This document shows positions 23,095 through 54,835 of a DNA stretch of 64,000 bases, piece after piece (the first letter of the stretch is position 1; every line of letters begins with the position of its first letter). This DNA comes from Bacteroidales bacterium. GTDB taxonomy: Bacteria; Bacteroidota; Bacteroidia; Bacteroidales; PXBB01. A program made the translations under genes and the position numbers. The stretch is taken from assembly GCA_028698995.1 (NCBI GenBank), contig JAQVVM010000024.1, positions 1-64,000 on the forward strand, written 5' to 3'. The notes beneath the pieces are model-generated. The model worked only from the letters and a program-made list of their open reading frames with translations. It searched no databases and was not told the DNA's origin.

Positions 23095-23404
23095 AAAATT
23101 AATGTTAATTATTTAATAGGCTTGGTAAAATTATATTTCAGTATAAAATTAATATTTTTAATATAATTATATATAAAATAATAATTTTTATTATATTATT
23201 ATTTTCTTTTTGGGGCAGTTACAAAAGATTAGAACTTAAATTTGGACTGGTTTTGCAAATAACTTATAAAAGAAAAAATGTTTTAAAAACAAAAATTTAT
23301 TGTTTATTAAAAAAAACATTTTATTTTTGTGCGGAATTAGGTCAAGTTGTGTTTTATTTCATGTTAAATTTAGAATTATTATATATCAAATTTTTAACAA
23401 TTTT
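23095..23404. other. 310-bp divergent control region between ferritin-like gene and fdhA
   Basis: Extremely AT-rich (long A/T runs around 23140-23205), no coding potential beyond a spurious upstream extension of the fdhA frame. It contains the fdhA promoter candidate at 23299-23329. Confidence 0.5.
23299..23329 (+). promoter_or_regulatory. Bacteroidetes-type promoter for fdhA
   Basis: ATTG at 23299-23302 (one mismatch to TTTG), a 19-nt spacer and TATTTTTG at 23322-23329. The predicted transcript begins near 23336, downstream of the ATG at 23300, which supports the later fdhA start at 23405. Confidence 0.55.
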
Positions 23405-26116
23405 ATGGAAAATAAAGTAAATATTATTATCGATGGTAAGCAGTATGAAGCTGCCAAAGGTAAAACAGTGCTGGATGTTGCCCGTGAAAATGGTGTTTAT
23501 ATTCCTACACTTTGTTATCATGCCCGTACAGGCAAAGCCGGTAAATGTAGGGCTTGTTTAGTTGAAATTGAAGGTGTAAGAGGCTTAAAGGAAAGTTGTG
23601 CCATGGAGGTAAGGGAAGGTATGGTTATTAAAAGCAACTCTGAAAAGATAACAGAAGTGCGTAAAATGATTGTAGAACTTCACTTATCAAATGGTGAGCA
23701 CAATTGTATTGCATGTGAAAAAAACGGACATTGTGAACTTCAGGACATGGCATACCATCTTGGTATTGAAAGACCCCATTATGCTGTTGAATCACATACC
23801 ATGGAACTGGATTGTTCCTCAGAAGGCATTATAAGAGATCCCAATAAATGTATTCAATGTGGCAGATGTATTAAAGGCTGTAACCACAATGTGATGCATG
23901 AAGTTTTGGATTTTGGCTGGCGTTCAGGACACATGAAAGTTATATGTGATGATGATGTACCAATGGGTGAATCTACGTGTGTCCAATGTGGAGAGTGTGT
24001 TCAGTTATGCCCTGTTGGAGCTTTAACATTTAAAAATGCAAAAGGGAAAGGCCCCTATTGGGAGCTTAAAAAGGATAAAGTTATTTGTACTTATTGTGGT
24101 GTGGGATGCTCTGTAGATGTTTACACTAAAGATAATAAATATATATATTCTTTAGGTACAGAGGAAAACTGGGAAAATCAAACTAATAAAGGGATGTTAT
24201 GTGTTAAAGGCCGCTTTGGTTTCGATTTTTTAAATAGGGAAGACAGACTTAAAACGCCACTTATTCGTAAGAATGGGAAACTTGAAGAGGCTACATGGGA
24301 TGAAGCTTTTGACTTAGTTGTTACAAAATTAGGAGATATTAAAGCAAAACATGGTAAAGGTTCTATAGGTTTCTTTACTTCTGCTCGTATTTCTAATGAA
24401 GAAAACTATGCTGTAATGCGATTTGCCAGGGGGGTCATCGGCACTAATAACATAGACCATTGTGCGCGATTGTGACACAGCTCTACAGTTGCGGGACTGG
24501 CAACTACGTTAGGCTCTGGTGCAATGACAAACAGCATGCAGGAAGCAGATAAATCAAATGTAATATTCATTATCGGAACCAATACTACTTGGAATCATCC
24601 AGTTTTTGGAGGCATGATAAAGAAAGCCGTCAAAGAAAAAGGTGTTAAGCTTATTGTAGCAGACCCAAGATCTATTGGCCTCGCTAAATTAGCTGATATT
24701 CATATTAAACAGAATCCTGGTTCAGATACAGCTTTATTAATGGGCCTTCAACACATTATTATTAAAAATGGTTGGGAAAATAAAGAGTTTATCAAGGAAA
24801 GAACTGAAGGTTGGGATGAATATGTTAAAAGTCTTGAGTTCTATACACCCGAAAAAGTTGAAGAATTGACAGGAATTTCTAAAGAACAAATTTTTGAAAC
24901 AGCAAAATTATATGCTACTTCAGGTAGGGGTGCTATCTTTTATGCAATGGGTATTACCCAACATACTCATGGGGTAGATAATGTAATGTCGTGTTCAAAT
25001 CTTCAAATGATACTTGGTAATTTTGGTTTAGAAGGTACAGGGGTAAATCCGCTTCGTGGTCAAAATAATGTTCAGGGAGCCTGTGATATGGGAGGCCTTC
25101 CCAATGTGTTTACAGCTTATCAACCCGTAATCAATGAAGATGCCCGTAAAAAATTTGCTGAAGCTTGGGGTAAGAAATTGGAAGACATGGATGACAAAGT
25201 TGGGCAAACAATAACAGGTATGGTTGACAATGCCGGCGATTCTATTAAAGCCGTTTACATTGTAGGTGAAAATCCTATGATGTCAGACCCTGATTTACAT
25301 CATGCTAAAGAACAATTTGAAAAACTCGATTTTATAGTTGTTCAGGATATATTTTTAACAGAAACTGCTCAGGTTGCTGATGTGGTATTGCCTGCTGCGG
25401 CATTTGCCGAAAAGTATGGTACTTTTACAAACACGGAACGTAGGGTGCAGTTTTCAAATATGGCTCTTAACCCTCCTAAAGGCGTTAAGCATGATCATGA
25501 AATTATTGCAGAATTAGCAAAACGTATGGGTTGTAATGATTTTCCTGATACTGTTGAAGCATTGTATGCTGAAATCAGAAAACTGTCTCCCTCTTATGCA
25601 GGTATATCTTATGAAAGAATTAAGAAAGGTCCAGGGCTCAGATGGCCTTGCCCTACTGAAGAGCATCCCGGTACACCAGTCCTGCACTCTGGTAAATTCT
25701 CCCGGGGATTAGGCTTATTAAAAGCAATTACTTACAGACCACCGGCTGAATATGCTAATGCTGAATATTCAATGGTACTTACTACAGGTAGAATGCTCCA
25801 ACATTATCATACAGGTTCAATGACCAGGCGATCAAAAGTGTTGGATGGTATTGTCTCTTCAGGTATGATAGAAATTAATATTGAAGATGCACAGAAGTTG
25901 AATATTGTAAATGGTGAAAAAGTTAAAGTTTCATCTCGTCGTGGTGCTATTGAAATAACAGCATTGGTAACAAATAAAATAAAGAAGGGTATTGTATTTA
26001 TTCCTTTCCACTTTGCTGAAACTGCAGCCAATGTTTTAACCAATAACGCACTTGACCCTGTAGCTAAGATACCTGAATACAAGGTTTGTGCTTGTAAAGT
26101 TGAAAAAATAAGTTAA
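23405..26116 (+). CDS. fdhA: NAD-linked formate dehydrogenase catalytic subunit, selenoprotein (in-frame UGA at 24473-24475)
   Basis: 903 residues when UGA at codon 357 is read as selenocysteine. The codons on both sides give '...NIDHCARL-U-HSSTVAGLATTL', the exact site where molybdenum/tungsten formate dehydrogenases carry Sec or Cys. Domains: N-terminal [2Fe-2S] (about 1-80), His-Cys cluster (HNCIACEKNGHC), two [4Fe-4S] sites (CIQCGRCIKGC and CVQCGECVQLC), a further [4Fe-4S] motif (CTYCGVGC...C near 235-270) and the bis-MGD oxidoreductase core to the end. The enzyme interconverts formate and CO2. An earlier in-frame ATG (23300) adds 35 unconserved residues and lies before the predicted transcript start, so 23405 is preferred. 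fdhB follows after 24 bp. Confidence 0.93.
24473..24515 (+). promoter_or_regulatory. Bacterial SECIS element
   Basis: After the UGA (24473-24475) and an 11-nt gap, AGTTGC (24487-24492) pairs perfectly with GCAACT (24500-24505) around the loop GGGACTG. The loop starts 17 nt after the UGA, the same distance as in E. coli fdhF, and a weaker lower stem (AGC 24479-24481 with GCT 24513-24515) is possible. Confidence 0.85.
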
Positions 26117-26140: not shown

Positions 26141-27871
26141 ATGCTAAGCGAAAAAATAAAAAACGATATACAGCAAATAATTGCAAAATACCCCAGAAGA
26201 GAATCTGCATTAATGCCGGCTTTAACACTTGTTCAAAAAGCTCATGGAAATAATCTCACTAAAGAATTATTAAAAGAAGTTGCTGCATATATTGGCGTTT
26301 CTGATTCCAGAGCTTTTGGTGTGGCTACCTATTATTCAATGTATAATGTTGACAAATCTGTTGGTAAATATCATCTTCAGGTTGACACCAATGTGCCTGC
26401 AACTTTGATGGGTGCAGTAGAGTTATTTAACTACCTCAGTGATAAGCTCGGTGTTAAAAGTGGAGAAACTACCCCCGATGGTTTATTTACATTAACAAAA
26501 GTAGAATGTTTGGCTTCTTGCGGTACTTGTCCAGTCATTCAGGTTAATGAAAAATATTATGAACTGATGAACAAAGAAAAAGTAGATATGCTTATCGATT
26601 CTTTGCGTCAAGGTATCATGCCTGAACTTCCTGTGGAATACAATTGGGCTACGCAATGTAATGTGTTATTTAAAAACAGGGGTATTCAAAATGCCCATAA
26701 AATTGATGTTTATAAGCAGCATGGTGGCTATAAGATGTTAGCAAAAGCCTATGAAATGACACCTGAAAATATCATTCAGGAGGTGAAGATTTCTCAACTT
26801 CGAGGTAGGGGAGGCGCAGGATTTCCAACAGGCGTAAAATGGGGTTTCGTTTCAAAAAATACCGGAAAACCAATATATCTGGTTTGTAATGCTGATGAAG
26901 GTGAACCTGGAACTTTCAAGGACAGACAAATCCTTGTTTATGACCCTCATTTACTTATCGAAGGCATGGCTATTTCAGCATATGCATTAGGTTGTACTAA
27001 GGCATTTATTTATATCAGGGGTGAATTTTCATGGATAGCACGTATTCTTGAAAAAGCCATTGAAGAAGCTAAGGCTGATGGCGTTCTTAGAAATCTTGAT
27101 ATAGTGGTGCATGAGGGAGCAGGCTCATACATCTGTGGTGAAGAAACAGCCCTGATCGAATCAATTGAAGGAAAAAGAGGACTTCCGAGAATGAAGCCCC
27201 CATTTCCAGCAGTTGAAGGCTTATATGGATGTCCTACAATTGTAAATAATGTTGAAACGTTGGCAAGCATACCTTTTATAGTTGAAAATGGCGGAGATGC
27301 TTTTAAAAAATGGGGATCTGAAGGTGGTTATGGTTTCAAACTTTTTGGTGTATCAGGCGCAGTAAATAAACCAGGTGTTTATGAATGCCCTATGGGTATT
27401 TCTTTCGAAGAACTTATTCAATTAGCCGGTGGTTATAAGGGCAATATTAAAGGAGTTATTGTAGGAGGTTTATCTGTTCCAATTTTAACACCTGATGAAC
27501 TTAAAGCCAATGGTGGTTTGAAAATGGATTATGAATCATGTGCCAACTTCAACACTTCTTTAGGATCTGGTGGTGTGATGGTTATCAGCGAAGAATTTTC
27601 TATTCCGGATATTGCAACCCGTACCATTCAGTTTTATAATCACGAATCTTGTGGACAATGTACACCCTGTCGCATGGGCTCTGGTATGATTGTTCATTTG
27701 CTTAAAAAAATATCATCAGGAAAAGGAGAAAAAGGTGATATTGAAAAAGCAATATGGTTCTGCGATAATATTAAAGGAAATACCTTATGTCCAACAGGTG
27801 AAGCCTATGCCCATCCTGTTAAAACGATGATACTTAAATTCCGTAATGAGTTTGAGCAATTAATTAAATAG
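26141..27871 (+). CDS. fdhB: Formate dehydrogenase NADH-binding subunit, NuoE-NuoF fusion
   Basis: 576 residues: a NuoE-like domain (about 1-160) and a NuoF-like diaphorase domain (about 200-570). The flavin/NAD motifs 'GRGGAGFPTGVKWGF' and CNADEGEPGTFKDRQ and the [4Fe-4S] motif ESCGQCTPCR with a later Cys (NTLCPTGEA) are intact, so it should pass electrons between FdhA and NAD. In the NuoE domain the first Cys pair is replaced (DTNVPATLMG) while CLASC is kept, so the [2Fe-2S] cluster is unlikely to form normally. It lies 24 bp after fdhA and is architecturally the twin of hoxEF (18610-20403). Confidence 0.9.
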   Translation: MLSEKIKNDIQQIIAKYPRRESALMPALTLVQKAHGNNLTKELLKEVAAYIGVSDSRAFGVATYYSMYNVDKSVGKYHLQVDTNVPATLMGAVELFNYLSDKLGVKSGETTPDGLFTLTKVECLASCGTCPVIQVNEKYYELMNKEKVDMLIDSLRQGIMPELPVEYNWATQCNVLFKNRGIQNAHKIDVYKQHGGYKMLAKAYEMTPENIIQEVKISQLRGRGGAGFPTGVKWGFVSKNTGKPIYLVCNADEGEPGTFKDRQILVYDPHLLIEGMAISAYALGCTKAFIYIRGEFSWIARILEKAIEEAKADGVLRNLDIVVHEGAGSYICGEETALIESIEGKRGLPRMKPPFPAVEGLYGCPTIVNNVETLASIPFIVENGGDAFKKWGSEGGYGFKLFGVSGAVNKPGVYECPMGISFEELIQLAGGYKGNIKGVIVGGLSVPILTPDELKANGGLKMDYESCANFNTSLGSGGVMVISEEFSIPDIATRTIQFYNHESCGQCTPCRMGSGMIVHLLKKISSGKGEKGDIEKAIWFCDNIKGNTLCPTGEAYAHPVKTMILKFRNEFEQLIK

Positions 27872-27905
27872 TCAAATAATTATTATTAACCAAAAAAAAA
27901 GAAAA

Positions 27906-29258
27906 ATGTCAGAAAAAAAACACAATCGTTGGCTAATTGCCATCATGGGAACTGTTTTACAGTTAGCTTTAGGTACAGTATATGCCTGGAGTTATTTCCA
28001 AAAACCAATCATGACAGCTTTTGGCTGGTCAAATGTTCAGGTAATGTGGATTTTTAGTTTAGCTATTTGTTTTCTTGGAATTTCTGCCGCCTGGGGTGGT
28101 ATGAACTTGGCTAAATTAGGTCCAAAAAAATTAGCAATTTCAGGTGCTATATTATTTGCAGCGGGTTATTTTATCGGCTCTTTTGCCATGTCAATTAACA
28201 ATGTCGTATTATTATACATTGGATACGGTGTTATTGGTGGATGTGGTTTGGGTCTTGGTTATGTTACTCCAGTTGCAACAGCTGCCAAATGGTTCCCTGA
28301 TAAAAAGGGATTTATCACAGGAATGGTAGTAATGGGATTTGGTTTGGGAGCATTAATTATGTCCAAATTTATTGCCCCTGCTCTTATGACCAGTTTTAAC
28401 AGTATTTTAAAAGCAATTCCTGCTGAATCTTTTGTTGATGGCAAACTTATGGATGATGCTGTAAAACTTACCCTTCAGGGTGAATTGGTAAAAGTTTTTC
28501 TTTACGCTGGTGCTATTTTACTTGCTATTGCACTTCCTGCTGCACTTATTATGCGTAATCCCCCTGCTGGTTATGTTCCTGCCGGCTATAATGCACCAGT
28601 TAAAAGTGCATCAAATCAAGCTAGTGAAGATAAACTGACCGTTAAGGATTGTATTCTTTCAAGTAAATTTTTAAGAATGTGGTTGATCTTCTTCTTAAAC
28701 ATTGCTGCAGGAATTATGTTTATTGGTCTTCAATCACCTATGTTACAGGATTTGTTGAAAAATGCTGGATCTGCTATGGATGCAGCTGCTTTAGCCGCAG
28801 CGGGTGGAACTTTGATAGCTATCAGTTCTTTATTTAATGGTATTGGTAGATTTTTCTGGGGAGGTTTGTCTGATAAAATAGGTAGAATACAAGCTTTCCG
28901 TTTAATTTTAGCTTCTCAACTTTTTGTGTTTATTGCCTTTATTTGGGTTGGAAATCCCTGGATTTTTGGCGTCATGGTTTGCTACATACTACTTTGTTAT
29001 GGTGGCGGCTTCGGCACCATGCCTTCTTTTGTTGGTGATATCTTTACCGCCAAATTAATGCCTGTTGTGTATGGCTCTATACTTACAGCATGGTCTGTAG
29101 CCGGTATTGTTGGACCACAAATAGCTGCATTCATTAAAGATAACTATAAAGCTGATGCTCCTACTTACACTTTTGTAACTGGTGCAGCTTTATTAGCCTT
29201 AGGTGTAATAATATCTTTTACACTGGATAATAAATCACTTGCTGAAGTAAAAAAATAA
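27906..29258 (+). CDS. Oxalate/formate antiporter-family MFS transporter
   Basis: 450 residues with about 12 membrane segments and the start 'NRWLIAIMGTVLQLALGTVYAWSYF' typical of the OFA (oxalate:formate antiporter) family. The conserved cytoplasmic loop GRFFWGGLSDKIGR lies near residue 317. The gene starts 34 bp after fdhB and ends at a strong terminator, so it belongs to the fdh transcription unit. Formate (or a related carboxylate) uptake or release is the natural inference; substrate cannot be proven from sequence because the OFA family is broad. Confidence 0.88.
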   Translation: MSEKKHNRWLIAIMGTVLQLALGTVYAWSYFQKPIMTAFGWSNVQVMWIFSLAICFLGISAAWGGMNLAKLGPKKLAISGAILFAAGYFIGSFAMSINNVVLLYIGYGVIGGCGLGLGYVTPVATAAKWFPDKKGFITGMVVMGFGLGALIMSKFIAPALMTSFNSILKAIPAESFVDGKLMDDAVKLTLQGELVKVFLYAGAILLAIALPAALIMRNPPAGYVPAGYNAPVKSASNQASEDKLTVKDCILSSKFLRMWLIFFLNIAAGIMFIGLQSPMLQDLLKNAGSAMDAAALAAAGGTLIAISSLFNGIGRFFWGGLSDKIGRIQAFRLILASQLFVFIAFIWVGNPWIFGVMVCYILLCYGGGFGTMPSFVGDIFTAKLMPVVYGSILTAWSVAGIVGPQIAAFIKDNYKADAPTYTFVTGAALLALGVIISFTLDNKSLAEVKK

Positions 29259-29280
29259 AAACCTTTTCTGTCGTAAATGA

Positions 29281-29316
29281 AAATACCTTAAAGTTATCCT
29301 TTAAGGTATTTTTCAT
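29281..29316. terminator. Intrinsic terminator after the formate transporter gene
   Basis: A 13-bp perfect stem, AAATACCTTAAAG (29281-29293) with CTTTAAGGTATTT (29299-29311), 5-nt loop, followed by a T-rich tract. It separates the fdhAB-transporter unit from mobA. Confidence 0.85.
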
Positions 29317-29333
29317 TTTTATTTTATTAATTT

Positions 29334-29340
29334 AAAGGAG
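29334..29340 (+). promoter_or_regulatory. Shine-Dalgarno sequence of mobA
   Basis: AAAGGAG ends 2 nt before the ATG at 29343. The strong motif, though unusually close, supports this start over internal alternatives. Confidence 0.45.
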
Positions 29341-29342
29341 TC

Positions 29343-30491
29343 ATGCTTGTAAAAGGCAATTTTATAATTATTGATGCTGATAGAAGTTATTGCTATTCGA
29401 ATAAACTAGCTTCTCAAATTATTGGGTTGATTGCAGCAAACCATGCTATTATAAGCCTTAAATTTAACTGCATTGATGAAAATGCCTCTGATTGTAATTT
29501 CGTTAAACAAAACAATGTTAAATCTCAAAGTTTTACCTATGAAATTAATGAAATACAATTCTCAGATTCAGTAAATAAAAATATTAATGTTTTAAAATCT
29601 GGCGCAAAAAAGGTTTTTCAAATATATACCCATAAAAATTATGCTCTTAAAGCCTGTATGGATTTTCTAAATAGAATACCCGAAAATTCTATGGTAATTG
29701 TAGAATCTAATTCTTTGAGAGATTATATGGAGCCGGGATTGTTTTTCGTCTTTAGTATTGAGAATGCCAATTCAAAAAGTAAAAAAGTTTTATCCCATCT
29801 TGCAGATAAAATTGTTGTTCTGAAAGATAGTACCTTGGAATTTGAACCAGAACGTGTGATGATAAGCCAAAATAAATGGTGTTTCAAACATAAAGCTACT
29901 GCTATAATTCTAGCTGGTGGTAAAAGTTCACGTATGGAAGGAGCTGAAAAAAGCCTTCTGAATTTTAATGGGAAGCCTTTAATTCAACATATTGTTGAAC
30001 AATTGGATATGTGCTTTGATCAAGTTATTATTGGTTCCAATGAGCCTGATAAATTTAAGTTTCTAAACAAAGAAGTAATTCCCGATATTGAGAAAAATAA
30101 AGGTCCCCTAATGGGAATTATGTCTTGCCTTAAATCATCAAAAAATGAATGTAATTTTATTACTGCATGTGATATTCCTGAAATGAATATTAATCTTATT
30201 AACAGAATGATAAGCATGTCTTCAGATGTGGATATTGTTATGCCTGTTTCAGAAAATGAAAAGTATGAACCTTTATATGCTGTGTATAATAAAAAAGTTA
30301 TTACTTTTGCCGAAGAAATTTTAAAAAATAACGGCAGAAAAATTACAAATGTATTAAAATATGCAAAAGTAGAGTTCGTAGATTTTGATAATGAAACTTG
30401 GTATTTTAATATCAACAGGAAATCTGATTTTATTGAGTTTATAAAAAGTAAAAATTATTGTAATAAAAGTAGATTGATAAACCAGTTATAA
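29343..30491 (+). CDS. mobA: Molybdenum cofactor guanylyltransferase with an extra N-terminal domain
   Basis: 382 residues, about twice the usual MobA length. The C-terminal half (about 185-375) is MobA: 'AIILAGGKSSRMEGAEKSLL' with the nucleotide-binding glycines and Lys, and 'ITACDIPEM' with the metal-binding Asp. It would add GMP to molybdopterin to make the MGD cofactor that FdhA needs. The N-terminal ~180 residues resemble a MobB-like P-loop fold, but the Walker A position reads DADRSYCYSNKLAS with no GxxxxGKS, so it is probably not a working nucleotide site. The location, just after the fdh unit, fits cofactor supply. Confidence 0.85.
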   Translation: MLVKGNFIIIDADRSYCYSNKLASQIIGLIAANHAIISLKFNCIDENASDCNFVKQNNVKSQSFTYEINEIQFSDSVNKNINVLKSGAKKVFQIYTHKNYALKACMDFLNRIPENSMVIVESNSLRDYMEPGLFFVFSIENANSKSKKVLSHLADKIVVLKDSTLEFEPERVMISQNKWCFKHKATAIILAGGKSSRMEGAEKSLLNFNGKPLIQHIVEQLDMCFDQVIIGSNEPDKFKFLNKEVIPDIEKNKGPLMGIMSCLKSSKNECNFITACDIPEMNINLINRMISMSSDVDIVMPVSENEKYEPLYAVYNKKVITFAEEILKNNGRKITNVLKYAKVEFVDFDNETWYFNINRKSDFIEFIKSKNYCNKSRLINQL

Positions 30492-30520
30492 ATTAAATGT
30501 TAAATTAAATTAAAAATCAA

Positions 30521-31744
30521 ATGAAAAAAAATGTATTTATTTTAGTAATAGGCATGTTTTTTCTTGTCGGAAATATATTTTCACAAGAAGAAAACAAAAA
30601 ATTAGAGTTTAAACCCTATGGCTTTGTTAAAGGCGATATGATTTACACTATGGGAGGTGTATATTCATTCGGGAATGTAGCTAATTGTTACAACTCTTCA
30701 CCTCAGTTTGCCAGTGGTTTGGATACAACGGCTATTGGTTTTACAGGACAACATTCACGTTTAGGTTTTAAAGCTTCCACCGGTGAAAAAATTAAAGTCA
30801 GTGGACTTCTTGAAATTGACTTCTATGAAGGCCCTATTAACAGTAATGTTAAACCTCGGATGAGATTAGGATATGTTTCTGTTTCAAAAGGTGGTTTTGA
30901 AGCCCGCTTCGGACAACAATGGGATTTGTATTCTTCATTAAATCCAAATACAAACAATACCAACGGAAATATGTGGTATGCAGGAAATAAAGGCTTTCGA
31001 AGGGGTCAAATTCAGTTAAGTTATGTTCTTAAAAATGATAAAATTTCCCCAATGATTCAACTTTCTGTTGGAGAAACAACCCGAGAAGACGCCGGTATTG
31101 GAAAAGACAACATCTCCGGTATCCCAATGCTTCAGGGAAGAGTGTCAGCTAAAATTTTAGATAAATATTCTTTAGGTGTTTCTTATGCATATGGTACTTA
31201 TCTTGAGAAAAAAGGTTTGATTGAAACAGGCGTAGGTTTAGGCATTGCCGATACATTATTATCTGATTTTACTGTTAATACTTCTGGTATTAGTGTTGAT
31301 CTCAGTCTGCCTATTCATAAATATTTTTCATTAAATGGTGAATTTAATACAGGAACAAATTTAAACAATGCAAACCTTTTCAGCGTTGCAGGTAATTATT
31401 CTTGGAGTATTCATGATTCTTTGAAAACCCTTTCTGTTAGTGATAAAAATAGCATGGGTATGTGGTTTAATGCACAGTCTAATATAACCGACTGGTTTCA
31501 AGTCGTTGTTGGATTTGGTATGGATAATAATACTTCAGAAACATTTGCTGTTAATAATATTGAAAAGAATACAGTCGTTTATGGCGACTTGATTTTTCCA
31601 ATAAAACATGGTTTTTCAATTGCTTTAGAGGTTATGAATATCAATACTACTGTTGTTTCTAAAGTTGATGTAAACAAGAAAATTACAGAAAGAAAAAGTA
31701 ATATTGCTAACGTGGTAAATCTTTCCGCAAAAGTTAATTTTTAA
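30521..31744 (+). CDS. Outer-membrane porin-like beta-barrel protein
   Basis: 407 residues with a signal peptide (KKNVFILVIGMFFLVGNIF...S) and alternating polar/hydrophobic strands typical of an outer-membrane barrel. N-terminal features such as 'PYGFVKGDMIYTMGG', 'HSRLGFKAST' and FGQQWDLYS resemble the DcaP/porin type found in Gram-negatives, ending in an aromatic residue (AKVNF) as barrel proteins do. It lies 29 bp after mobA and ends at a terminator. Passage of small anions such as formate is a plausible but unproven role. Confidence 0.75.
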   Translation: MKKNVFILVIGMFFLVGNIFSQEENKKLEFKPYGFVKGDMIYTMGGVYSFGNVANCYNSSPQFASGLDTTAIGFTGQHSRLGFKASTGEKIKVSGLLEIDFYEGPINSNVKPRMRLGYVSVSKGGFEARFGQQWDLYSSLNPNTNNTNGNMWYAGNKGFRRGQIQLSYVLKNDKISPMIQLSVGETTREDAGIGKDNISGIPMLQGRVSAKILDKYSLGVSYAYGTYLEKKGLIETGVGLGIADTLLSDFTVNTSGISVDLSLPIHKYFSLNGEFNTGTNLNNANLFSVAGNYSWSIHDSLKTLSVSDKNSMGMWFNAQSNITDWFQVVVGFGMDNNTSETFAVNNIEKNTVVYGDLIFPIKHGFSIALEVMNINTTVVSKVDVNKKITERKSNIANVVNLSAKVNF

Positions 31745-31988: not shown

Positions 31989-33974
31989 ATGGATATTCTT
32001 ACATGTAAAATATTAATATTATTAACCCTCGTGGTTTTTGTAATCCCTAAAAATTACCACTATCTATGGGGATTGATGTTGCATATAGGGCTCATTACAA
32101 TAAGTAGTATATGGGCAATTCAAAGCTTGTTTTTTTCGGATCTTACACTAAGCAAAGCTTTTATGCCTCTCATGGGTCATGCTCTTTTCCTTGAAATTGA
32201 CAAATTATCTGCATATTTTATTTTAGTTGTGAACTTCACAGCATTGACAGGAATTATATATGCAAAGTCCTATTTAGAACCCTATTTCAAAGTCAAAACT
32301 AAGTCAGAAATGGCTTTGCATTTTTTTAGCTTTCTCTGGTTGCATATTTCTATGTTACTAGTCTTAATGTTTAGAGATGCCCTTGCATTTTTAATCGCAT
32401 GGGAACTGATGGCTTTGTCTTCTTTTGTGCTGGTCATCTTTGAATCAGATAAAAAAGAAACAATTAAGATTGGTATTCAGTATCTTATCCAAATGCACAT
32501 AGGTTTTGTTTTTATTTTATTCGCTTTTTTATGGGCACACACACAAGCCGGAGCAGTCTTTAGCTTTGATGGTTTATTCTCTTATTTTGAAACCCATAAT
32601 CCATTAGGATTATTTGTTCTTTTTTTTGTGGGTTTTGGAATCAAAGCCGGATTCATTCCTTTTCATTCATGGTTGCCACATGCCCATCCGGCTGCTCCTT
32701 CTCATGTATCGGGTGTAATGAGTGGGGTGATGATTAAAATGGGTATATTCGGAATACTCAGAGTTCTTACTTATATCCATCATGATTTCTTTTATATAGG
32801 ATTACTTATTTTATCTGTTTCTATGATTTCAGGTATTTTAGGCGTAAGTATGGCTATAGTACAACACGATTTTAAGAAGCTATTGGCTTATCACAGTATT
32901 GAGAACATTGGTATCATTGGTATTGGAATAGGTTTAGGGGTCATTGGTATGGCAGTTCATATTCCTGTTTTAACAGTACTTGGTTTTGCAGGGGCACTAT
33001 TACATGTACTGAACCACTCTCTTTTTAAGTCATTGCTATTTTATACCGCAGGCAGTGTTTATCAGCAGACTAAGACACGTAACATTGAGAAACTTGGAGG
33101 CTTGATTAAAAAAATGCCTGTTACTGCCTTATTTTTTCTTTTAGGATCTTTGGCTATTTGTGGTTTACCACCTTTTAACGGCTTCATTTCTGAATTTCTA
33201 ATTTATTCAGGGATTTTCAAATCCCTGCAACCTGGTGGTTTATTTACAGATATTATACTTCTTTTCAGTTTTATTGGCTTAGTTCTAATAGGAGGACTCG
33301 CCGTTTTTTGTTTTACAAAAGTATTCAGTATTATTTTTCTTGGAACACCCCGTTCAGAAAAAGTGTCTGAAGCAGTGGAAGTGGATGCTTCAATGATTAT
33401 GCCCGATTATATGATTGGTTTTATGATTGTTGCAATTGGCATTCTGCCTTCCATTTTTATTTATCCTCTGTCGATGGTTGTTTCACAATTTTCAAATGAT
33501 ATAATATTAATAAATCAGATGATTCCAATCTTAAACAAAGTTGGCGTTATTTCCGGGATTTTTATTGGATTAATAGGTCTGTTATGGATTTTAAGAGCCT
33601 GGCAACAAAGAAAACATGATGTTTCGCAGAGTGCAACTTGGGGTTGTGCTTATACAGGTGCTGATCCTGCCTTACATCAATACACAGCTACATCTTATGC
33701 CGGAAACTTTATTCAACTTTCAAATAAGATTGTCAATGTGAATAAAGATGCTATTGAATTTCAAGAATCTGAAATTTTTCCTCAGGAAAAAGCGTTTGAG
33801 ACACATTCAAGCGACATTTTTGAGGATCATTTAATCCTTAAACCGGTTCAAAAGATGCTTAAATGGTTTGAACGTTTTGCAGTATTTCAGACCGGTAGAA
33901 TTCAGCATTACCTGCTATATGCACTTGTTTTCTTAATAGTAATTTTTGTTTTAACTCTTCTGAACTGGATATAG
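31989..33974 (+). CDS. Complex-I-like antiporter subunit, HyfB/NuoL-like
   Basis: 661 residues, about 14-16 membrane helices. Proton-channel residues of the NuoL/Mrp antiporter family appear intact: the Glu in 'LIAWELMALSSF' (near 138) and the Lys in 'FVGFGIKAGFIPFHSWLP' (near 220), plus the 'HPAAPSHVSGVMSG' loop and later 'HSIENIGIIGIGIG'. The C-terminal part contains WGCAYTGADPALHQYT, typical of hydrogenase-4 subunit B. It would form a proton-translocating channel of the membrane arm. First gene of a tightly packed six-gene operon. Confidence 0.88.
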   Translation: MDILTCKILILLTLVVFVIPKNYHYLWGLMLHIGLITISSIWAIQSLFFSDLTLSKAFMPLMGHALFLEIDKLSAYFILVVNFTALTGIIYAKSYLEPYFKVKTKSEMALHFFSFLWLHISMLLVLMFRDALAFLIAWELMALSSFVLVIFESDKKETIKIGIQYLIQMHIGFVFILFAFLWAHTQAGAVFSFDGLFSYFETHNPLGLFVLFFVGFGIKAGFIPFHSWLPHAHPAAPSHVSGVMSGVMIKMGIFGILRVLTYIHHDFFYIGLLILSVSMISGILGVSMAIVQHDFKKLLAYHSIENIGIIGIGIGLGVIGMAVHIPVLTVLGFAGALLHVLNHSLFKSLLFYTAGSVYQQTKTRNIEKLGGLIKKMPVTALFFLLGSLAICGLPPFNGFISEFLIYSGIFKSLQPGGLFTDIILLFSFIGLVLIGGLAVFCFTKVFSIIFLGTPRSEKVSEAVEVDASMIMPDYMIGFMIVAIGILPSIFIYPLSMVVSQFSNDIILINQMIPILNKVGVISGIFIGLIGLLWILRAWQQRKHDVSQSATWGCAYTGADPALHQYTATSYAGNFIQLSNKIVNVNKDAIEFQESEIFPQEKAFETHSSDIFEDHLILKPVQKMLKWFERFAVFQTGRIQHYLLYALVFLIVIFVLTLLNWI

Positions 33975-33975
33975 A

Positions 33976-34890
33976 ATGTTAGGTGTACTTTTGATATTAT
34001 CTTCTGCAATTTTTTTTCCTGGTATTACTGCTAAAGTTAAAGCAAGATTAGGAGGAAGAAAGATGCCGCACCTGTTTCAGCCTTTGTTTGATGTTGTGCG
34101 TCAGTTTAAAAAGAGGACCATTTATAGTCCCGTTACAAGTATTATATTCAAAATGGCCCCAATAATCTATTTTGCCTCAGTACTTGTAGCAATTATGTTA
34201 ATTCCCTTGGGAGAACAAAAGGGCTTGATATCTTTTGATGGAGATTTTGTGTTTTTTGCATACATTCTTGCTTTAGGGAGATTTATGATGATTATTGGCG
34301 CCATGGATACAGGAAGTGGTTTTGAGGGAATGGGTGCCAACCGTGAAGCCTTTTATGCATTGCTCGTAGAACCTGCCTTTTTTATCCTAATGGGTTCTAT
34401 GGCTCTTTTTACCGGCTTTCCATCTTTCAGCGACCTATACTCTAATATGCATATTAACACCAACCTGTCGTACATAACCGGTATTGCAGCTATTTATGTG
34501 TTAATGTACACGGCTATGGTTGAAAATTCCCGTTTACCGGTGGATGATCCCAAAACACACCTTGAGCTGACAATGATTCATGAAGTAATGATACTTGACA
34601 ACAGCGGCTTTGATCTTTCTCTGATGTACATAGCTTCATGGCTCAAATTTGCAGTTTTCGGTGCTTTAATATCAAATTTTCTGATTTATACATCATGGTC
34701 TATTTATATTCAAATTATTGTGTTTTATTTGATACAGTTTGTTTTTGCAGTAGTTGTTGGCATGCTTGAATCCTTCAGAGCAAGAAATAAAATGGATAAG
34801 AATCCTCAATGGATTTTAATGCTTTCTGCAATTTCAATAGTTATCTTTTTAACGACATTAATTATTACGCAAAAAATAATTTTAAATTAG
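33976..34890 (+). CDS. Complex-I-like membrane subunit, HyfC/NuoH-like
   Basis: 304 residues with about eight membrane helices. It matches the NuoH/HycD/HyfC family, which joins the membrane arm to the soluble arm: 'GRKMPHLFQPLFDVVRQFKK' near the N-terminus (quinone-site side in complex I) and 'ENSRLPVDDPKTHLELTMIHE' near 175-195, the acidic loop typical of the group 4 hydrogenase branch. It starts 1 bp after hyfB-like and ends 3 bp before the next gene. Confidence 0.88.
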   Translation: MLGVLLILSSAIFFPGITAKVKARLGGRKMPHLFQPLFDVVRQFKKRTIYSPVTSIIFKMAPIIYFASVLVAIMLIPLGEQKGLISFDGDFVFFAYILALGRFMMIIGAMDTGSGFEGMGANREAFYALLVEPAFFILMGSMALFTGFPSFSDLYSNMHINTNLSYITGIAAIYVLMYTAMVENSRLPVDDPKTHLELTMIHEVMILDNSGFDLSLMYIASWLKFAVFGALISNFLIYTSWSIYIQIIVFYLIQFVFAVVVGMLESFRARNKMDKNPQWILMLSAISIVIFLTTLIITQKIILN

Positions 34891-34893
34891 CAA

Positions 34894-35523
34894 ATGGTAT
34901 TACTCTTTATTATATTTTACGCCGTAACTCTTATTTACTTTGCTCTCTCAGAAAGGGTTAAAAAATTTGTTGTTTTGTTGTCTTTACAAGGTTTTCTTTT
35001 GTTTGGAGTGGTATTTTTCAGCTTGTATAAAATTGAAATTTTTGATTTCATCTTTATCCTTATTGAAACAATTTTGGTGAAAGCTATAGTAATACCATGG
35101 TTCTTAAATAAAGTCCGTAAACATAATAATTTAAAAAAAGTACATGAACCTTCTGTTCCTGTTTTTTATTCGATAATTGTTGTTGTTACCAGCCTCATAT
35201 TTAGCTTTCTAATAAGTAACTATTTGAAAGATAATCAAATACATACATTGTACTTTACGGTTGCTTTTTCTTCAGTTATTTTTGGTCTTTATTTTATAAT
35301 TATTCATAAAAATATTTTTTCACATCTTGTTGGATATATCATCATTGAAAATGGTATATTTCTATTTTCTCTCGCTGTTGGCAGTGTGATGCCTTTAATG
35401 GTTAATTTAGCCATCCTCCTTGATGTTTTTATGGGTGTTTTGGTGCTTGGTACTTTTGTGAACAGAATTGGAAACACCTTTGATAGTATCGAAACTGATA
35501 ATTTGACAAAATTAAAAGATTAA
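34894..35523 (+). CDS. Hydrogenase-4-like membrane subunit, HyfE/NuoK-like
   Basis: 209 residues, about six membrane helices, length and position as for HyfE, which contains a NuoK-like half. A buried Glu in 'VGYIIIENGIFLFSLAVG' (near 150) matches the NuoK-type channel glutamate. Lies between hyfC-like and hyfF-like genes with 3-4 bp spacing. Confidence 0.8.
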   Translation: MVLLFIIFYAVTLIYFALSERVKKFVVLLSLQGFLLFGVVFFSLYKIEIFDFIFILIETILVKAIVIPWFLNKVRKHNNLKKVHEPSVPVFYSIIVVVTSLIFSFLISNYLKDNQIHTLYFTVAFSSVIFGLYFIIIHKNIFSHLVGYIIIENGIFLFSLAVGSVMPLMVNLAILLDVFMGVLVLGTFVNRIGNTFDSIETDNLTKLKD

Positions 35524-35527
35524 GAAA

Positions 35528-36946
35528 ATGTTGATTTTATTTTTTATATTTTCAATTTGTATAAGTATCTGCATTTTTATTGCAAAAAGTAAAATTGTCA
35601 ATCGAATCCTGTTTCCATTATTTATTACTTCACAAATTGCTTTAAGCGCATTTTCATATACCCATCAGGATATTGTAGATTCATACTTCTTCAAATTTGA
35701 CGCATTAGGAATATTATTGGGGGCTGTATTAACAATTCTAAGTTTATGTACTTATTACTATAGTCTTATTTATCTAAAAAGAAAAGGCGTTAAAGTCAAA
35801 TCAGAGAGCCAATATTTTGCTGCTTTGATTCTTTTTATAACAGCTATGGTCAGTTCAAATTACACGGGAAATATTGCATTACTTTGGGCCAGTATTGAAG
35901 CAACGACTTTATTTGCATCAATTTTAATTTTTCATGAACGAACAAAGGATGCTTTGGAAGCAGCATGGAAATATTTGTTTGTTTCATCTGTGGGTATAGC
36001 AATTGCTTTTATCGGCATACTCTTTATGAGTATTATTGCCAGCAATAGTGGACTTAATAACCTGAGTTTTGATAATCTGGCATCCGCATCCGAAAATATG
36101 AATCCTATATGGTTAAAAATATCATTTTTACTTATTCTTACAGGTTTTTCTGTTAAGATCAGTTTGTTCCCATTATATGCAGTTGCTATTGATGCAAAAA
36201 CAATTGCTCCATCTCCGGTAAATGCATTGATGTCAACAGCACTTGTGAATGTTGGATTTCTTGTGATTTACCGTTCTTATGTAATAATATCAGGAACAGA
36301 AGTAATGGCATGGGCTCAGCATGTGCTTATGCTAACCGGCATTATTTCATTGATAATTGCAAGCATACAATTAACACGGGTCAAAAGATTAAAAAGATTG
36401 TATGCTTTTTCGACCATGGAACACATGGGTATTGTATTCTTAGGTCTTTCTGTTGGAGGTATTGGGTATTATGCTGCTGTGTTGCATTTGATTTTTCACT
36501 CCTTTGTAAAAGCAGGTTTATTTTATCAGATTAATCAAATTCATACGCTTTTTAAATCCAAATGGATTTATAACTTTGGCGGTTTTTTCAAACTCAACCC
36601 GTTTGCAGGATTAGCAATGCTTTTAGGTCTGGTGTCAATAACTGCAATGCCACCTTCAGGGCTTTTTGTAAGTGAATTTATGATTTTTAAGGCTATGTTT
36701 TTTGGAGATAAATTTATTTATGCTGGTGTAAGTCTTTTTTTTATTACAGCCATTTTATACTTTTTTATTAAAAATTTTCTGCAAATTCTGTATGCGCCAA
36801 GCCAAGGAACTATTGAATTTCAAGAAAATGAACCTTATGAAAATGTCATTCAAATACTTCTTTACAGTCTTGTTATTTATCTTGGGGTAACACCTCCTTA
36901 TATATTTACTGACCTTATTAATGCTGTAGTTTCCGGATTAAATTAA
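35528..36946 (+). CDS. Complex-I-like antiporter subunit, HyfF/NuoN-like
   Basis: 472 residues, about 13-14 membrane helices. The channel Glu in 'ALLWASIEATTLFAS' (near 120) and a Lys in 'LTGFSVKISLFPLY' (near 210) are visible; 'HSFVKAGLFYQ' (near 325) carries a further membrane Lys. It is the second antiporter-like subunit. A HyfD-type third antiporter subunit is absent, so the membrane arm would hold two NuoL/N-type channels plus HyfC and HyfE. Confidence 0.87.
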   Translation: MLILFFIFSICISICIFIAKSKIVNRILFPLFITSQIALSAFSYTHQDIVDSYFFKFDALGILLGAVLTILSLCTYYYSLIYLKRKGVKVKSESQYFAALILFITAMVSSNYTGNIALLWASIEATTLFASILIFHERTKDALEAAWKYLFVSSVGIAIAFIGILFMSIIASNSGLNNLSFDNLASASENMNPIWLKISFLLILTGFSVKISLFPLYAVAIDAKTIAPSPVNALMSTALVNVGFLVIYRSYVIISGTEVMAWAQHVLMLTGIISLIIASIQLTRVKRLKRLYAFSTMEHMGIVFLGLSVGGIGYYAAVLHLIFHSFVKAGLFYQINQIHTLFKSKWIYNFGGFFKLNPFAGLAMLLGLVSITAMPPSGLFVSEFMIFKAMFFGDKFIYAGVSLFFITAILYFFIKNFLQILYAPSQGTIEFQENEPYENVIQILLYSLVIYLGVTPPYIFTDLINAVVSGLN

Positions 36947-36954
36947 TTAAAAAA

Positions 36955-38478
36955 ATGACTGCACCTTCATTATTATTGCGCATAAAAAATGGTCAATCTG
37001 TTGATTTGAAAGCTATTCCGGTATTGAATTATGATGAATTTTCTGACCTGGCAGTACTTTTATTGAAAGAAGAAACTTGTCATTGTGTTAGCTATTATGC
37101 TTTTAAGCAAGAAAATGGTTTAAAGTTTATTATGGCAATAGCTGATGACAGTCAGCACGATGTTATTATTTTTTCTCATCACTTACTTAATGGTAGCCAA
37201 TTTGAGCTCCCATCTTTAACACCACATATTTTTGCTTTACATATCTTTGAACGGGAAATCCATGAAAACTTTGGCGTTAAATTTACAAATCACCCATGGT
37301 TAAAACCTGTCCGGTTTTCTCAAAATCGTTTTAACAATGATTTGAAAATTAATGATTATCCGTTCTATTCAATAAAAAGCGATGAATTGCATGAAGTTGG
37401 GGTTGGTCCTGTTCATGCAGGAATTATTGAGCCCGGTCATTTTCGTTTTATCTGCAATGGAGAGAATGTTTTACATCTTGAAATTCAATTAGGATGGCAA
37501 CATAGAGGCATAGAACAATTGTTCCTCGACAAAAAGAAGATGCTTCAAAGAAATATTTTAGCTGAAAATATTGCCGGAGATACAGTCATAGGACATACAA
37601 GTACTTTTGCTCAACTAATGGAATCATTGTCTGATATTGAGATTACTGAGCAAATACAGATAGAAAGAGCATTAGCCCTTGAGTTGGAGCGTATTGCCAT
37701 TCATACCGGAGATACTGCTGCTTTATGCGTTGACGCAGCCTATTATCTGGGAGCTAATGTTTTTGGGATTCTGCGTACCGGTATTATCAACTTTACTCAA
37801 TCATGGTGTGGAAATCGCCTCGGAAAAAGTCTTATCAGGGTAGGGGGTACCCATAGTTCATTCACAGAAGACTTGAAGCAAACATTGCTAAATGTTTTAG
37901 CAGCTTATGAAAAAATGTATATTGAAATGTCGCATCTGACCTATCGCTTACCAAGTGTTCAAAACCGTTTTGATAATGTAGGCAATATCTCTAAAAATCA
38001 AGCTCATTTATTAGGGACAGTAGGTCTTTCTGCCCGTATGTCGAATGTGATGCGAGATATCAGAATTTCTCACCCGACATGGGCCTATAGTAGTTTCCCT
38101 ATTGAAACAATTATGACTTTAAAAGGAGATGTTTTTGCACGCTTTTTATTAAAACGTAAAGAGATTAAACGTTCTGTATTATGGATTCATAATTTACTTG
38201 ATAATTACAATTTCGACAGTTCAAAAACTAAAAAACCGATTTATAGCAAACCCTTAAAACCTGACAGCTTTGCCATTTCATTAACCGAGGGTTGGCGTGG
38301 AGAGATTTGCCACTGTGCTGTTACAGATGATAAAGGGGAGTTGTTGCATTATAAGGTAAAAGACCCTTCAATGCACAATTGGAAAGCTCTGGAGATTTCA
38401 TTAAGAGATGTAGAAATATCCGATTTTCCCATCAACAATAAGAGTTATAATTTAAGTTATTGCGGACACGACCTTTAA
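36955..38478 (+). CDS. Large subunit of a hydrogenase-4-like complex lacking the [NiFe] site (NuoC-NuoD fusion)
   Basis: 507 residues: a NuoC-like part (about 1-130; 'HIFEREIHENFGVKF') fused to a NuoD/hydrogenase-large-subunit part ('LHLEIQLGWQHRGIEQLF' near 165). The family's first nickel motif, CxxC, is replaced by AENIAGDTVIGHTS near 200, and the C-terminal DPCxxC motif by NKSYNLSYCGHDL. With both cysteine pairs gone it cannot carry a [NiFe] centre, so this is not a hydrogenase. The pattern is that of the so-called Ehr (energy-converting hydrogenase-related) complexes. The substrate is unknown. Confidence 0.87.
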   Translation: MTAPSLLLRIKNGQSVDLKAIPVLNYDEFSDLAVLLLKEETCHCVSYYAFKQENGLKFIMAIADDSQHDVIIFSHHLLNGSQFELPSLTPHIFALHIFEREIHENFGVKFTNHPWLKPVRFSQNRFNNDLKINDYPFYSIKSDELHEVGVGPVHAGIIEPGHFRFICNGENVLHLEIQLGWQHRGIEQLFLDKKKMLQRNILAENIAGDTVIGHTSTFAQLMESLSDIEITEQIQIERALALELERIAIHTGDTAALCVDAAYYLGANVFGILRTGIINFTQSWCGNRLGKSLIRVGGTHSSFTEDLKQTLLNVLAAYEKMYIEMSHLTYRLPSVQNRFDNVGNISKNQAHLLGTVGLSARMSNVMRDIRISHPTWAYSSFPIETIMTLKGDVFARFLLKRKEIKRSVLWIHNLLDNYNFDSSKTKKPIYSKPLKPDSFAISLTEGWRGEICHCAVTDDKGELLHYKVKDPSMHNWKALEISLRDVEISDFPINNKSYNLSYCGHDL

Positions 38479-38491
38479 TACAAAAGCATTT

Positions 38492-39247
38492 ATGTTTAAG
38501 GAAACAAAAATACTATATCAAAACGGAAAGCAATATATTCCTGATTTACGCAGGGTAGTACTTAAACCACCGTACAGAGGAAGACCCGAAATCAGTTCAG
38601 CTCAGGTTGATGAACATGCTCTTGAGGAACTTTGCCCATTGGGTGCTATTTCCAGAAAACCATTCTGCATTGATTTGGGGAAATGTGCTTTTTGTGGAGA
38701 ATGTGCTTATGCATTTCCCGAGAAAATTAAATTTACAACAGATTATAAAATTGCTTCTAATAAAAGAGATCATTTGAAAATATATGAAGGCATCAGTACC
38801 GGAATAGTAATAGATGAACATAGCATAAATCCTGTTATTAGAAAAGTTTTTTCAAAATCTCTTAAACTTAGGCAAGTTTCAGCAGGAGGTGATAATTCAT
38901 GTGAATGGGAATTGAATGCCTGTGGAAATGCAAATTTTGATATGGGCCGTTTTGGAATTGAATTTCTAGCTTCTCCCCGCCATGCAGATGGCATAGTTGT
39001 TACCGGACCTATTAGTGAAAATATGGCAGAAGCTTTAAAAATTACTTATGATGCTATTCCTGACCCCAAGATTGTAATATTATGTGGTGTTGATGCCATT
39101 AGTGGCGGAATTTTTTCAGATAGTAAAGCTATTAACAGAAGCTTTCTGAATGATGTTCATATTGATTTATTTATACCCGGCAATCCCCCACACCCGCTTA
39201 CAATTATTAATGGCATACTAGATTTAACAAGAGGAAAGAAAGGTTAG
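38492..39247 (+). CDS. Fused ferredoxin-HyfI/NuoB-like subunit with depleted iron-sulfur ligands
   Basis: 251 residues, a fusion of HyfH-like (about 1-110) and HyfI/NuoB-like (about 110-245) parts. In the ferredoxin part, ELCPLGAI with KCAFCGEC supplies one complete [4Fe-4S] set; the other cluster is lost (the last Cys-Pro reads FPE and the first CxxCxxC is absent). In the NuoB part, the four proximal-cluster ligand positions read Asp (GGDNSCE), Cys, Asp (CGVDAISGG) and Asn (IPGNPPHP), so three of four are not Cys. The redox arm of the complex is therefore strongly reduced. Last gene of the operon, 13 bp after the large subunit. Confidence 0.85.
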   Translation: MFKETKILYQNGKQYIPDLRRVVLKPPYRGRPEISSAQVDEHALEELCPLGAISRKPFCIDLGKCAFCGECAYAFPEKIKFTTDYKIASNKRDHLKIYEGISTGIVIDEHSINPVIRKVFSKSLKLRQVSAGGDNSCEWELNACGNANFDMGRFGIEFLASPRHADGIVVTGPISENMAEALKITYDAIPDPKIVILCGVDAISGGIFSDSKAINRSFLNDVHIDLFIPGNPPHPLTIINGILDLTRGKKG

Positions 39248-45615: not shown

Positions 45616-45962
45616 ACTCAAATGGGGTATTTGGCAAAATAGTGAAAATAACTATATATATTATATACCTTTTTATTAAATGTTTGATTTTTTGCACATT
45701 CTGAAATTACTAAAATGTGGTATTTATTTTGGCGTTTTGTCAAAATAAATATTTTTCTATTTAACAATTAATTAATTTATATTCATGAAGAATTCCATTA
45801 TTTTAAGCTCATTGAAATTTCTAAAACCACAATACATTTTAAACAACAACTTAATATTAGAATCACTAAGAATCTATATTTTGTTAAAGAATGTGTTAAT
45901 TAATGAAACCAATTGAAATGTATATTATTCATATAAAATGTATACATTTAAACATTTTATTC

Positions 45963-45970
45963 TATTTTTG
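45963..45970 (+). promoter_or_regulatory. -7 promoter element just upstream of vsr
   Basis: TATTTTTG fits TAnnTTTG and ends 4 nt before the preferred vsr ATG at 45975. The transcript would be leaderless; no convincing -33 TTTG was found. Confidence 0.4.
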
Positions 45971-45974
45971 TAAT

Positions 45975-46382
45975 ATGGTAGATGTTCATGATAAAAAGAC
46001 CAGAAGCTATAATATGAGCCGTATTAAAGGCAAAGATACTAAGCCTGAAATGTTGGTACGTAAATTTCTTTTTGCTAATGGTTTCAGATACCGTCTATAT
46101 GATAAAAAGTTACCTGGTAAACCCGATATTGTATTACCAAAATATAAAACCGCAATTTTTGTTAATGGTTGTTTTTGGCATGGTCATAAGAATTGTAAAA
46201 AATTTGTTGTTCCAAAAACAAGATCTGAATTCTGGCTTAATAAAATCAATACAAATATTTTAAATGACAAAAAAAATATTATTACACTTAAAAATGCTAA
46301 TTGGAAAGTGATAATTATATGGGAATGTCAGATAAATAAAACAAATACTTTCAAAGACATTTTAAATCAGATAGAAAAATAA
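45975..46382 (+). CDS. vsr: Very short patch repair endonuclease
   Basis: 135 residues from the ATG at 45975, chosen because the family begins MxDVHxxxxRSxNMxxIKxKDTKPE; the longer frame from 45903 adds 24 unconserved residues. Vsr nicks beside T:G mismatches made when 5-methylcytosine deaminates. The catalytic Asp (PD at residues 50-51) and the His of FWHGH (H69, H71) align with E. coli D51, H69 and H71; E. coli H64 is Asn here (VNGCFWH). Its TAA is immediately followed by the ATG of a cytosine methyltransferase. It serves to protect the methylated sites of that enzyme pair. Confidence 0.93.
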   Translation: MVDVHDKKTRSYNMSRIKGKDTKPEMLVRKFLFANGFRYRLYDKKLPGKPDIVLPKYKTAIFVNGCFWHGHKNCKKFVVPKTRSEFWLNKINTNILNDKKNIITLKNANWKVIIIWECQINKTNTFKDILNQIEK

Positions 46383-48865: not shown

Positions 48866-48867
48866 AA

Positions 48868-49578: not shown

Positions 49579-49579
49579 A

Positions 49580-54832: not shown

Positions 54833-54835
54833 ACT

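Follow-up and report, generated by a model that had tools for sequence, protein, structure and literature searches.

Energy-converting-hydrogenase-related (Ehr) complexes, which are group-4-hydrogenase-like and complex-I-like, are defined by missing NiFe ligands (PMC6349859, PMC10284858). Published examples (ehrABCDLS; Geobacter, Methylacidiphilum, Nitrospira, Margulisbacteria) are group-4-hydrogenase-like membrane complexes, and that of Methylacidiphilum has six subunits (PMC6349859, PMC10284858, PMC6688271). Geobacter Ehr proteins are more abundant during growth on formate (PMC7894505), and complexes of formate dehydrogenase (FDH) with Ehr have been proposed for Margulisbacteria and Saganbacteria (PMC6349859). 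A precedent for redox-free coupling is provided by DAB2, in which a NuoL-type proton path is coupled to CO2 hydration (PMC13144422). The coupling of electron transfer to distant ion channels in complex I is a long-standing question.

The window, by which we mean the whole 64,000-nucleotide stretch of DNA analysed, encodes a six-subunit Ehr complex in six consecutive genes at 31989-39247 (+). The original prediction had described a complex-I-like pump at 36955-39247; the extent held only in part, because the feature spans the whole operon beyond the two genes named. We refer to the genes as EhrB, C, E, F, G and I, whose products are, in gene order, HyfB-, HycD/NuoH-, HyfE-, HyfF-, NuoC+NuoD(HycE)- and ferredoxin+NuoB(HycG)-like:

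31989..33974, +, EhrB, HyfB/HycC/MbhH-like antiporter-type membrane subunit, 661 aa (Pfam PF00361; PRK06521, hydrogenase 4 subunit B)
33976..34890, +, EhrC, NuoH/HycD-like membrane subunit (PF00146; HycD alignment)
34894..35523, +, EhrE, HyfE/NuoK-like membrane subunit (PF00420; PRK11492, hydrogenase 4 membrane subunit)
35528..36946, +, EhrF, HyfF-like antiporter-type membrane subunit (PF00361; residue conservation)
36955..38478, +, EhrG, fused NuoC-like (30 kDa) and NuoD/HycE-like (49 kDa) large subunit (PF00329 and PF00346; HycE/MbhL alignment)
38492..39247, +, EhrI, ferredoxin-like domain fused to a NuoB/HycG-like small subunit, 251 aa (PF01058; AlphaFold model; MbhJ fold match)

The HyfBCEFGI-like subunit set within one operon is that of an Ehr complex, and the large subunit without NiFe ligands fits the published definition (PMC6349859, PMC10284858). 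The locus departs from published Ehr in its small subunit, which also lacks ligands of the proximal [4Fe-4S] cluster; the four proximal Cys, usual in Ehr though not stated as defining, are replaced by D, C, D and N, with the Asp/Asp/Asn conserved in relatives (hereafter acid-type, as opposed to Cys-type). We found no report of proximal-cluster loss in Ehr in the open-access literature searched, but the original Ehr papers lay outside it, and an earlier mention is possible.

Other related machines differ more widely. The complex has equivalents of HyfB, C, E, F, G and I with an order and folds like those of E. coli formate hydrogenlyase (HycBCDEFG, PDB 7z0s) and Hyf, but it has neither a NiFe site nor a proximal cluster, carries one ferredoxin cluster rather than two, and has the ferredoxin and small subunit fused. 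It shares with respiratory complex I (Nuo/Nqo) the E-channel, the antiporter-type ion path and NuoC/D/B/H/K/L-N-like parts, but lacks the N2 cluster, so that complex I membership, which calls for N2 ligands in NuoB and the quinone tyrosine in NuoD, is not met. DAB/DAC (DabA-DabB) has a NuoL-like proton path put to redox-free use (PMC13144422), whereas Ehr keeps a NuoB/NuoD-type arm; DAB/DAC membership was ruled out because DabA (PF10070) was absent from all 12 acid-type genomes tested (that of the window and 11 relatives). Mrp antiporters have MrpA/D-like membrane subunits homologous to those of Ehr, but the small subunits MrpE, F and G that accompany them are not in the Ehr operon, and Mrp membership is likewise not met. 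MrpF was not found in the window's genome, and it occurred in 3 of 12 acid-type genomes as against 12 of 48 other relatives tested; lacking any association, the idea that Ehr replaces Mrp was rejected.

The window's genome (4.47 Mb, 98% complete) contains one match each to EhrI and EhrG, both being the window genes, and these searches found no second NuoB-type protein or standard complex I. This genome has Rnf/Nqr-type subunits, as do 10 of the 11 related genomes that carry the acid-type complex.

Metal sites of the large and small subunits

The positions that bear on the lost and kept metal sites are as follows:

37561..37599, +, AENIAGDTVIGHT, where the N-terminal (first) NiFe CxxC motif would lie, with neither Cys (alignments)
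38437..38475, +, NKSYNLSYCGHDL, C-terminal stretch where the second NiFe CxxC motif would lie (alignments)
38633..38704, +, C48, C65, C68 and C71, single kept [4Fe-4S] site of the ferredoxin domain (conservation in relatives)
38891..38902, +, D134 (GAT) and C137 (TGT), proximal-cluster ligand positions one and two (alignment)
39092..39094, +, D201 (GAT), proximal-cluster ligand position three (alignment)
39182..39184, +, N231 (AAT), proximal-cluster ligand position four (alignment)

Aligned to HycE, MbhL and NuoCD, EhrG has neither NiFe CxxC motif, and Ser501 and Gly504 of NKSYNLSYCGHDL are invariant where two Cys would stand. The NiFe ligands are absent from acid-type and Cys-type clades alike, and the mark of a group 4 [NiFe] hydrogenase, two Ni/Fe-binding CxxC motifs in the large subunit, is not met. 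In EhrI, alignment to MbhJ and HycG places D134, C137, D201 and N231 (codons GAT, TGT, GAT and AAT) at the proximal-cluster positions. Missed cysteines, which the original prediction had named as one way it could be refuted, were ruled out, since no other Cys aligned at these ligand positions against MbhJ or HycG. The ferredoxin domain keeps the cluster that is nearest to the NuoB site by homology, that of C48/C65/C68/C71, and lacks the other. Thus the claims of the original prediction that the nickel cysteine motifs are missing, that the proximal positions read Asp, Cys, Asp, Asn, that one ferredoxin cluster of two is kept, and that loss of nickel is already known for Ehr (PMC6349859, PMC10284858) all held.

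An AlphaFold model of EhrI (pLDDT 93.5) superimposes on MbhJ with a TM-score by target of 0.82 and an rmsd of 1.6, and also matches NuoB/PSST chains of complex I. The NuoB fold is thus predicted to be intact despite the lost ligands, although only the fold, and not the geometry of the pocket, was compared. In the large subunit, the position of the complex I quinone tyrosine, Tyr87 of NuoD, is Gly in nearly all EhrG rows, in a register set by eye from the Nqo4 sequence and HMMER alignments. The same register indicates that the His38 equivalent is kept; an equivalent of this residue is also found in hydrogenases.

A lineage-wide change with a second origin

The window's complex is no lone oddity but a typical member of its clade. 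A contig scan of genomes yielded 80 loci, and among 92 aligned EhrI homologues (two pairs of them identical) 59 are acid-type, with Asp/Asp/Asn at 134/201/231, and 33 have all four Cys. Within the acid-type rows D134 is conserved at 97% and D201 and N231 at 98% each; position 137 is Cys in 46 of the 59, and the remaining 13, which carry A, G, N, D, V, S or H there, thus lack Cys at all four proximal positions. The Cys-type rows come from Gastranaerophilales/Melainabacteria, Ignavibacteriales, Lentisphaeria, Aminicenantes, Nitrospirota and others. No EhrI columns other than 134, 201 and 231 split the two types at ≥80%, and the acid-type rows form one clade (SH-aLRT 96), implying one change, in a tree of the 92-row set built without the four ligand columns. 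Loss of the three proximal ligands is coordinated and lineage-wide. A Cys-type locus found later (L128) is unresolved at the base of the acid clade in a tree of EhrG and EhrI, which fits either a single gain or a gain plus a reversal. The ferredoxin cluster Cys are present in every row covering the site, 57 of 57 acid-type and 33 of 33 Cys-type. Sequencing error in the three substituted codons, the other way in which the original prediction could have failed, is ruled out by conservation of the substitutions across dozens of independent genomes.

The change in proximal ligands arose independently in a second lineage. Locus L142 (genome G014, contig 386, 536-7752) is a second kind of Ehr operon, with the gene order NuoB, B, C, E, F, G, and its NuoB protein of 175 aa reads D-C-D-D and has no ferredoxin domain; there is also no ferredoxin gene in the 620 bp upstream. 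Both the ferredoxin Cys and all four proximal Cys are retained in its closest kin, L112/L143 and L113/L144. The large-subunit tree groups L142 with L143 and L144, and the branch dividing them from the window's family has 100% support. For the NuoB tree, a topology with one acid clade is rejected (AU p = 0.003), a test that we regard as supporting rather than final evidence given the long branches. No recognisable redox site was seen in any of the six L142 subunits, and by inspection the channel residues are intact. Of 393 genomes in its order, only one was found to have this fully cluster-free form. The further claim of the original prediction, that near-complete loss of proximal ligands comes on top of nickel loss and puts redox drive in doubt, is supported by the lineage-wide change, by the 13 complete cases and by this second origin.

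The ion path is conserved. Acid-type and Cys-type complexes alike show next to no variation in the Glu, Lys and His residues of the antiporter-like subunits or in the Arg, Glu and Asp residues of the NuoH-like subunit, so that the predicted retention of membrane-subunit Glu and Lys held. In EhrB these are TM5 Glu139, Lys219, Lys296, His343, Lys347 and Glu402 (HycC and MbhH alignments and residue conservation), and in EhrF Glu124, Lys210, Lys289, His324, Lys328 and Glu383 (residue conservation); the E-channel residues R123, E124, E132, E183, D190, E197 and E203 of EhrC are invariant among the relatives compared. Pumping by the acid-type complex is inferred from these conserved residues alone, without biochemical data, and to that extent the word pump in the original prediction held only in part. 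In a subgroup of acid-type loci, among them L040, L053 and many more, EhrB is present as two full-length genes (order B1-B2-C-E-F-G-I), which would give three antiporter-like subunits.

Genes around Ehr operons

The window's Ehr operon comes after formate dehydrogenase genes, and a Hox-type hydrogenase is nearby:

23300..26116, +, FDH alpha subunit, NAD-linked, read through an in-frame TGA (TGA at 24473-24475)
26141..31744, +, NuoE/F-like FDH subunit, OFA-type MFS transporter, MobA and an outer-membrane-protein-like gene (upstream of the Ehr operon)

The in-frame TGA occupies the active-site position (HCARL-U-HSSTVAG). There is also a SECIS_3 match, at 24470-24528, that falls under the gathering score, and from these we infer that the FDH alpha subunit is a selenocysteine enzyme. 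Among the fetched flanks, 53 of them from loci of ≥12 kb, only that of L063, from Spirochaetia, matched the window's FDH, MFS and Hox proteins (blast, E ≤ 1e-4), so the FDH partner proposed for other Ehr (PMC6349859) is not general in this family and was ruled out as such. No conserved redox partner gene was found in the fetched flanks. L063 shares the whole FDH-NuoEF/OFA transporter/Ehr/Hox set, with 78-81% identity in HoxH and HoxY, a likeness that suggests transfer of the cluster between phyla.

SulP anion transporters occur in or beside Ehr operons in three arrangements. They lie directly downstream of EhrI in two acid-type loci (L049 and L068) and in a Cys-type locus, L161, from the genome that carries L128. 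One clade of Cys-type operons has SulP upstream, accompanied by an EIIA-type gene, and in L144 a SulP-STAS-EIIA fusion (4922-7138) stands between the EhrG and EhrI genes. The genes next to EhrI are:

L049, 5989-8740, SulP, including a carbonic-anhydrase-like gene
L068, 10827-12539, SulP
L161, 7114-8898, SulP

The carbonic-anhydrase-like gene that follows SulP in L049 is a match below the Pfam cut-off (E 1e-4). Counting the 83 loci with most of the operon, SulP lies within 3 kb at 2 of 41 acid-type, 8 of 37 Cys-type (where L105 and L167 look like one locus) and 1 of 5 other loci. The link is real in several lineages, yet it is missing from most acid-type operons and is merely a hint. EIIA-type PTS genes stand just upstream of the Cys-type operons L079, L088, L097, L100, L103, L105, L109 and L162-L173, at least one of them with a helix-turn-helix, and none was seen by acid-type operons. 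ACR3 arsenite transporter genes lie near the Ehr operons of L067, L097 and L169, with ArsC in L097 and L169; these recur more rarely than SulP.

Possible roles of a complex without a proximal cluster

On balance, we lean towards the view that acid-type Ehr is a non-redox membrane complex, disabled in electron transfer and linked to an ion gradient, an inference made without biochemical data. The known electron route into the cavity is missing because there is no nickel, proximal cluster or quinone tyrosine. A non-redox function linked to an ion gradient is favoured by several observations in combination: the membrane arm and the replacement residues are conserved, the second origin went with loss of the ferredoxin domain, and no redox partner is conserved. 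In this view, electron transfer into the former catalytic cavity would be abolished, while the membrane arm, with its two antiporter-like subunits and NuoH-like E-channel subunit, would survive as a functioning machine for ion translocation. A coupling role would remain for the large/small-subunit module, now without proximal cluster, nickel or complex I quinone tyrosine, and a non-electron event in the cavity, be it binding or conversion of a small ligand or a plain change in protonation, would be exchanged with a flow of ions along the E-channel and antiporter subunits, making the complex a transporter or enzyme linked to a proton or sodium gradient. The kept ferredoxin cluster, which by analogy with complex I geometry we infer to be too far from the cavity for direct transfer, may be structural or a redox sensor. 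Because cofactors are invisible in sequence, the non-redox function, the direction of ion flow and the reaction in the cavity are all inferred.

Several observations count against this reading. Chief among them, and unexplained, is the retention of the ferredoxin cluster throughout the acid-type rows that cover its site. NAD-linked FDH adjoins the operon, with Hox-type hydrogenase near, in both the window and L063, and the formate-linked abundance of Geobacter Ehr (PMC7894505) and the FDH-Ehr proposal (PMC6349859) point the same way. Furthermore, there are no biochemical data, and the fully cluster-free case is one genome. As far as the literature limit given above allows, proximal-cluster loss in Ehr is what is new here, nickel-free Ehr being already known. 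If the non-redox reading is true, electrons are not needed to drive the coupling module, and the complex would offer a clean natural control for models of complex I coupling. Part of the Ehr class, which is frequent in Bacteroidota and so far without an assigned role, would also gain a function. A bolder version, which we consider no more than possible, is that the vacated cluster and nickel pockets (Asp/Asp/Asn with the conserved large-subunit cavity) form a new site for a non-electron reaction, most likely of CO2/bicarbonate, exchanged with proton or sodium flow through an intact membrane arm of complex I type. Acid-type Ehr would then be non-redox members of the complex I superfamily whose peripheral-arm fold is fully kept, and the change, having arisen at least two times, would in one case have left the encoded subunits without any recognisable redox site.

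Alternatively, Asp134, Asp201 and Asn231, with Cys137 where present, may hold another metal (mononuclear Fe, Zn or Mn) or an O-ligated cluster, and the complex may remain a redox-driven pump in which electrons pass from the kept ferredoxin cluster to a substrate in the cavity. The replacements are specific, conserved and non-random, the ferredoxin cluster is in all covering rows, FDH and Hox are neighbours in the window and L063, and the NuoB fold is kept with high confidence in the model. However, eight different residues occur at position 137 (C, A, G, D, N, V, S, H), so that only Asp, Asp and Asn remain as constant ligands, which are poor for a [4Fe-4S] cluster; the D-C-D-D lineage has no ferredoxin domain; and without the quinone tyrosine and NiFe ligands there is no known acceptor. 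We therefore think a substitute cofactor improbable.

A specific form of the non-redox reading, an inorganic-carbon machine, also seems doubtful. Here the cavity would hydrate CO2 or handle bicarbonate and exchange the proton with the membrane arm, as a functional analogue of DAB/NDH-1MS on an Ehr scaffold. The three SulP arrangements, the carbonic-anhydrase-like gene of L049 and the DAB2 precedent (PMC13144422) speak for it, but SulP is near only 2 of 41 acid-type operons and can carry other anions, the carbonic anhydrase match is under the Pfam cut-off, ACR3/ArsC genes also recur beside some Ehr operons, and no carbonic anhydrase motif was recognised in Ehr subunits.

Less likely still is a supercomplex in which FDH and its NuoE/F-like partner dock on Ehr so that formate oxidation drives ion pumping. 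The FDH, OFA transporter and MobA genes lead into the window's operon, the L063 set is alike, and the idea has been proposed (PMC6349859), but outside the window FDH, NuoEF or Hox matched only in the L063 flank, the electron path from a docking site to the cavity is cut at the proximal cluster, and the window FDH has its own NAD module and has no need of Ehr. Decay of a vestigial peripheral arm under relaxed selection, with genes heading to loss, can be practically dismissed: the losses of NiFe, one ferredoxin cluster and the proximal cluster resemble stepwise erosion, but the ORFs are intact in dozens of genera, replacement residues are 97-98% conserved, many residues are invariant in both arm subunits, and ion-path residues are essentially all conserved.

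Elsewhere in the window, 45903-56857 holds what we take to be a Vsr-like nuclease, two DNA methyltransferases, a GHKL ATPase, a Z1-type ATPase and AIPR-like genes, and by the look of these genes we take the region to be a restriction/defence island.
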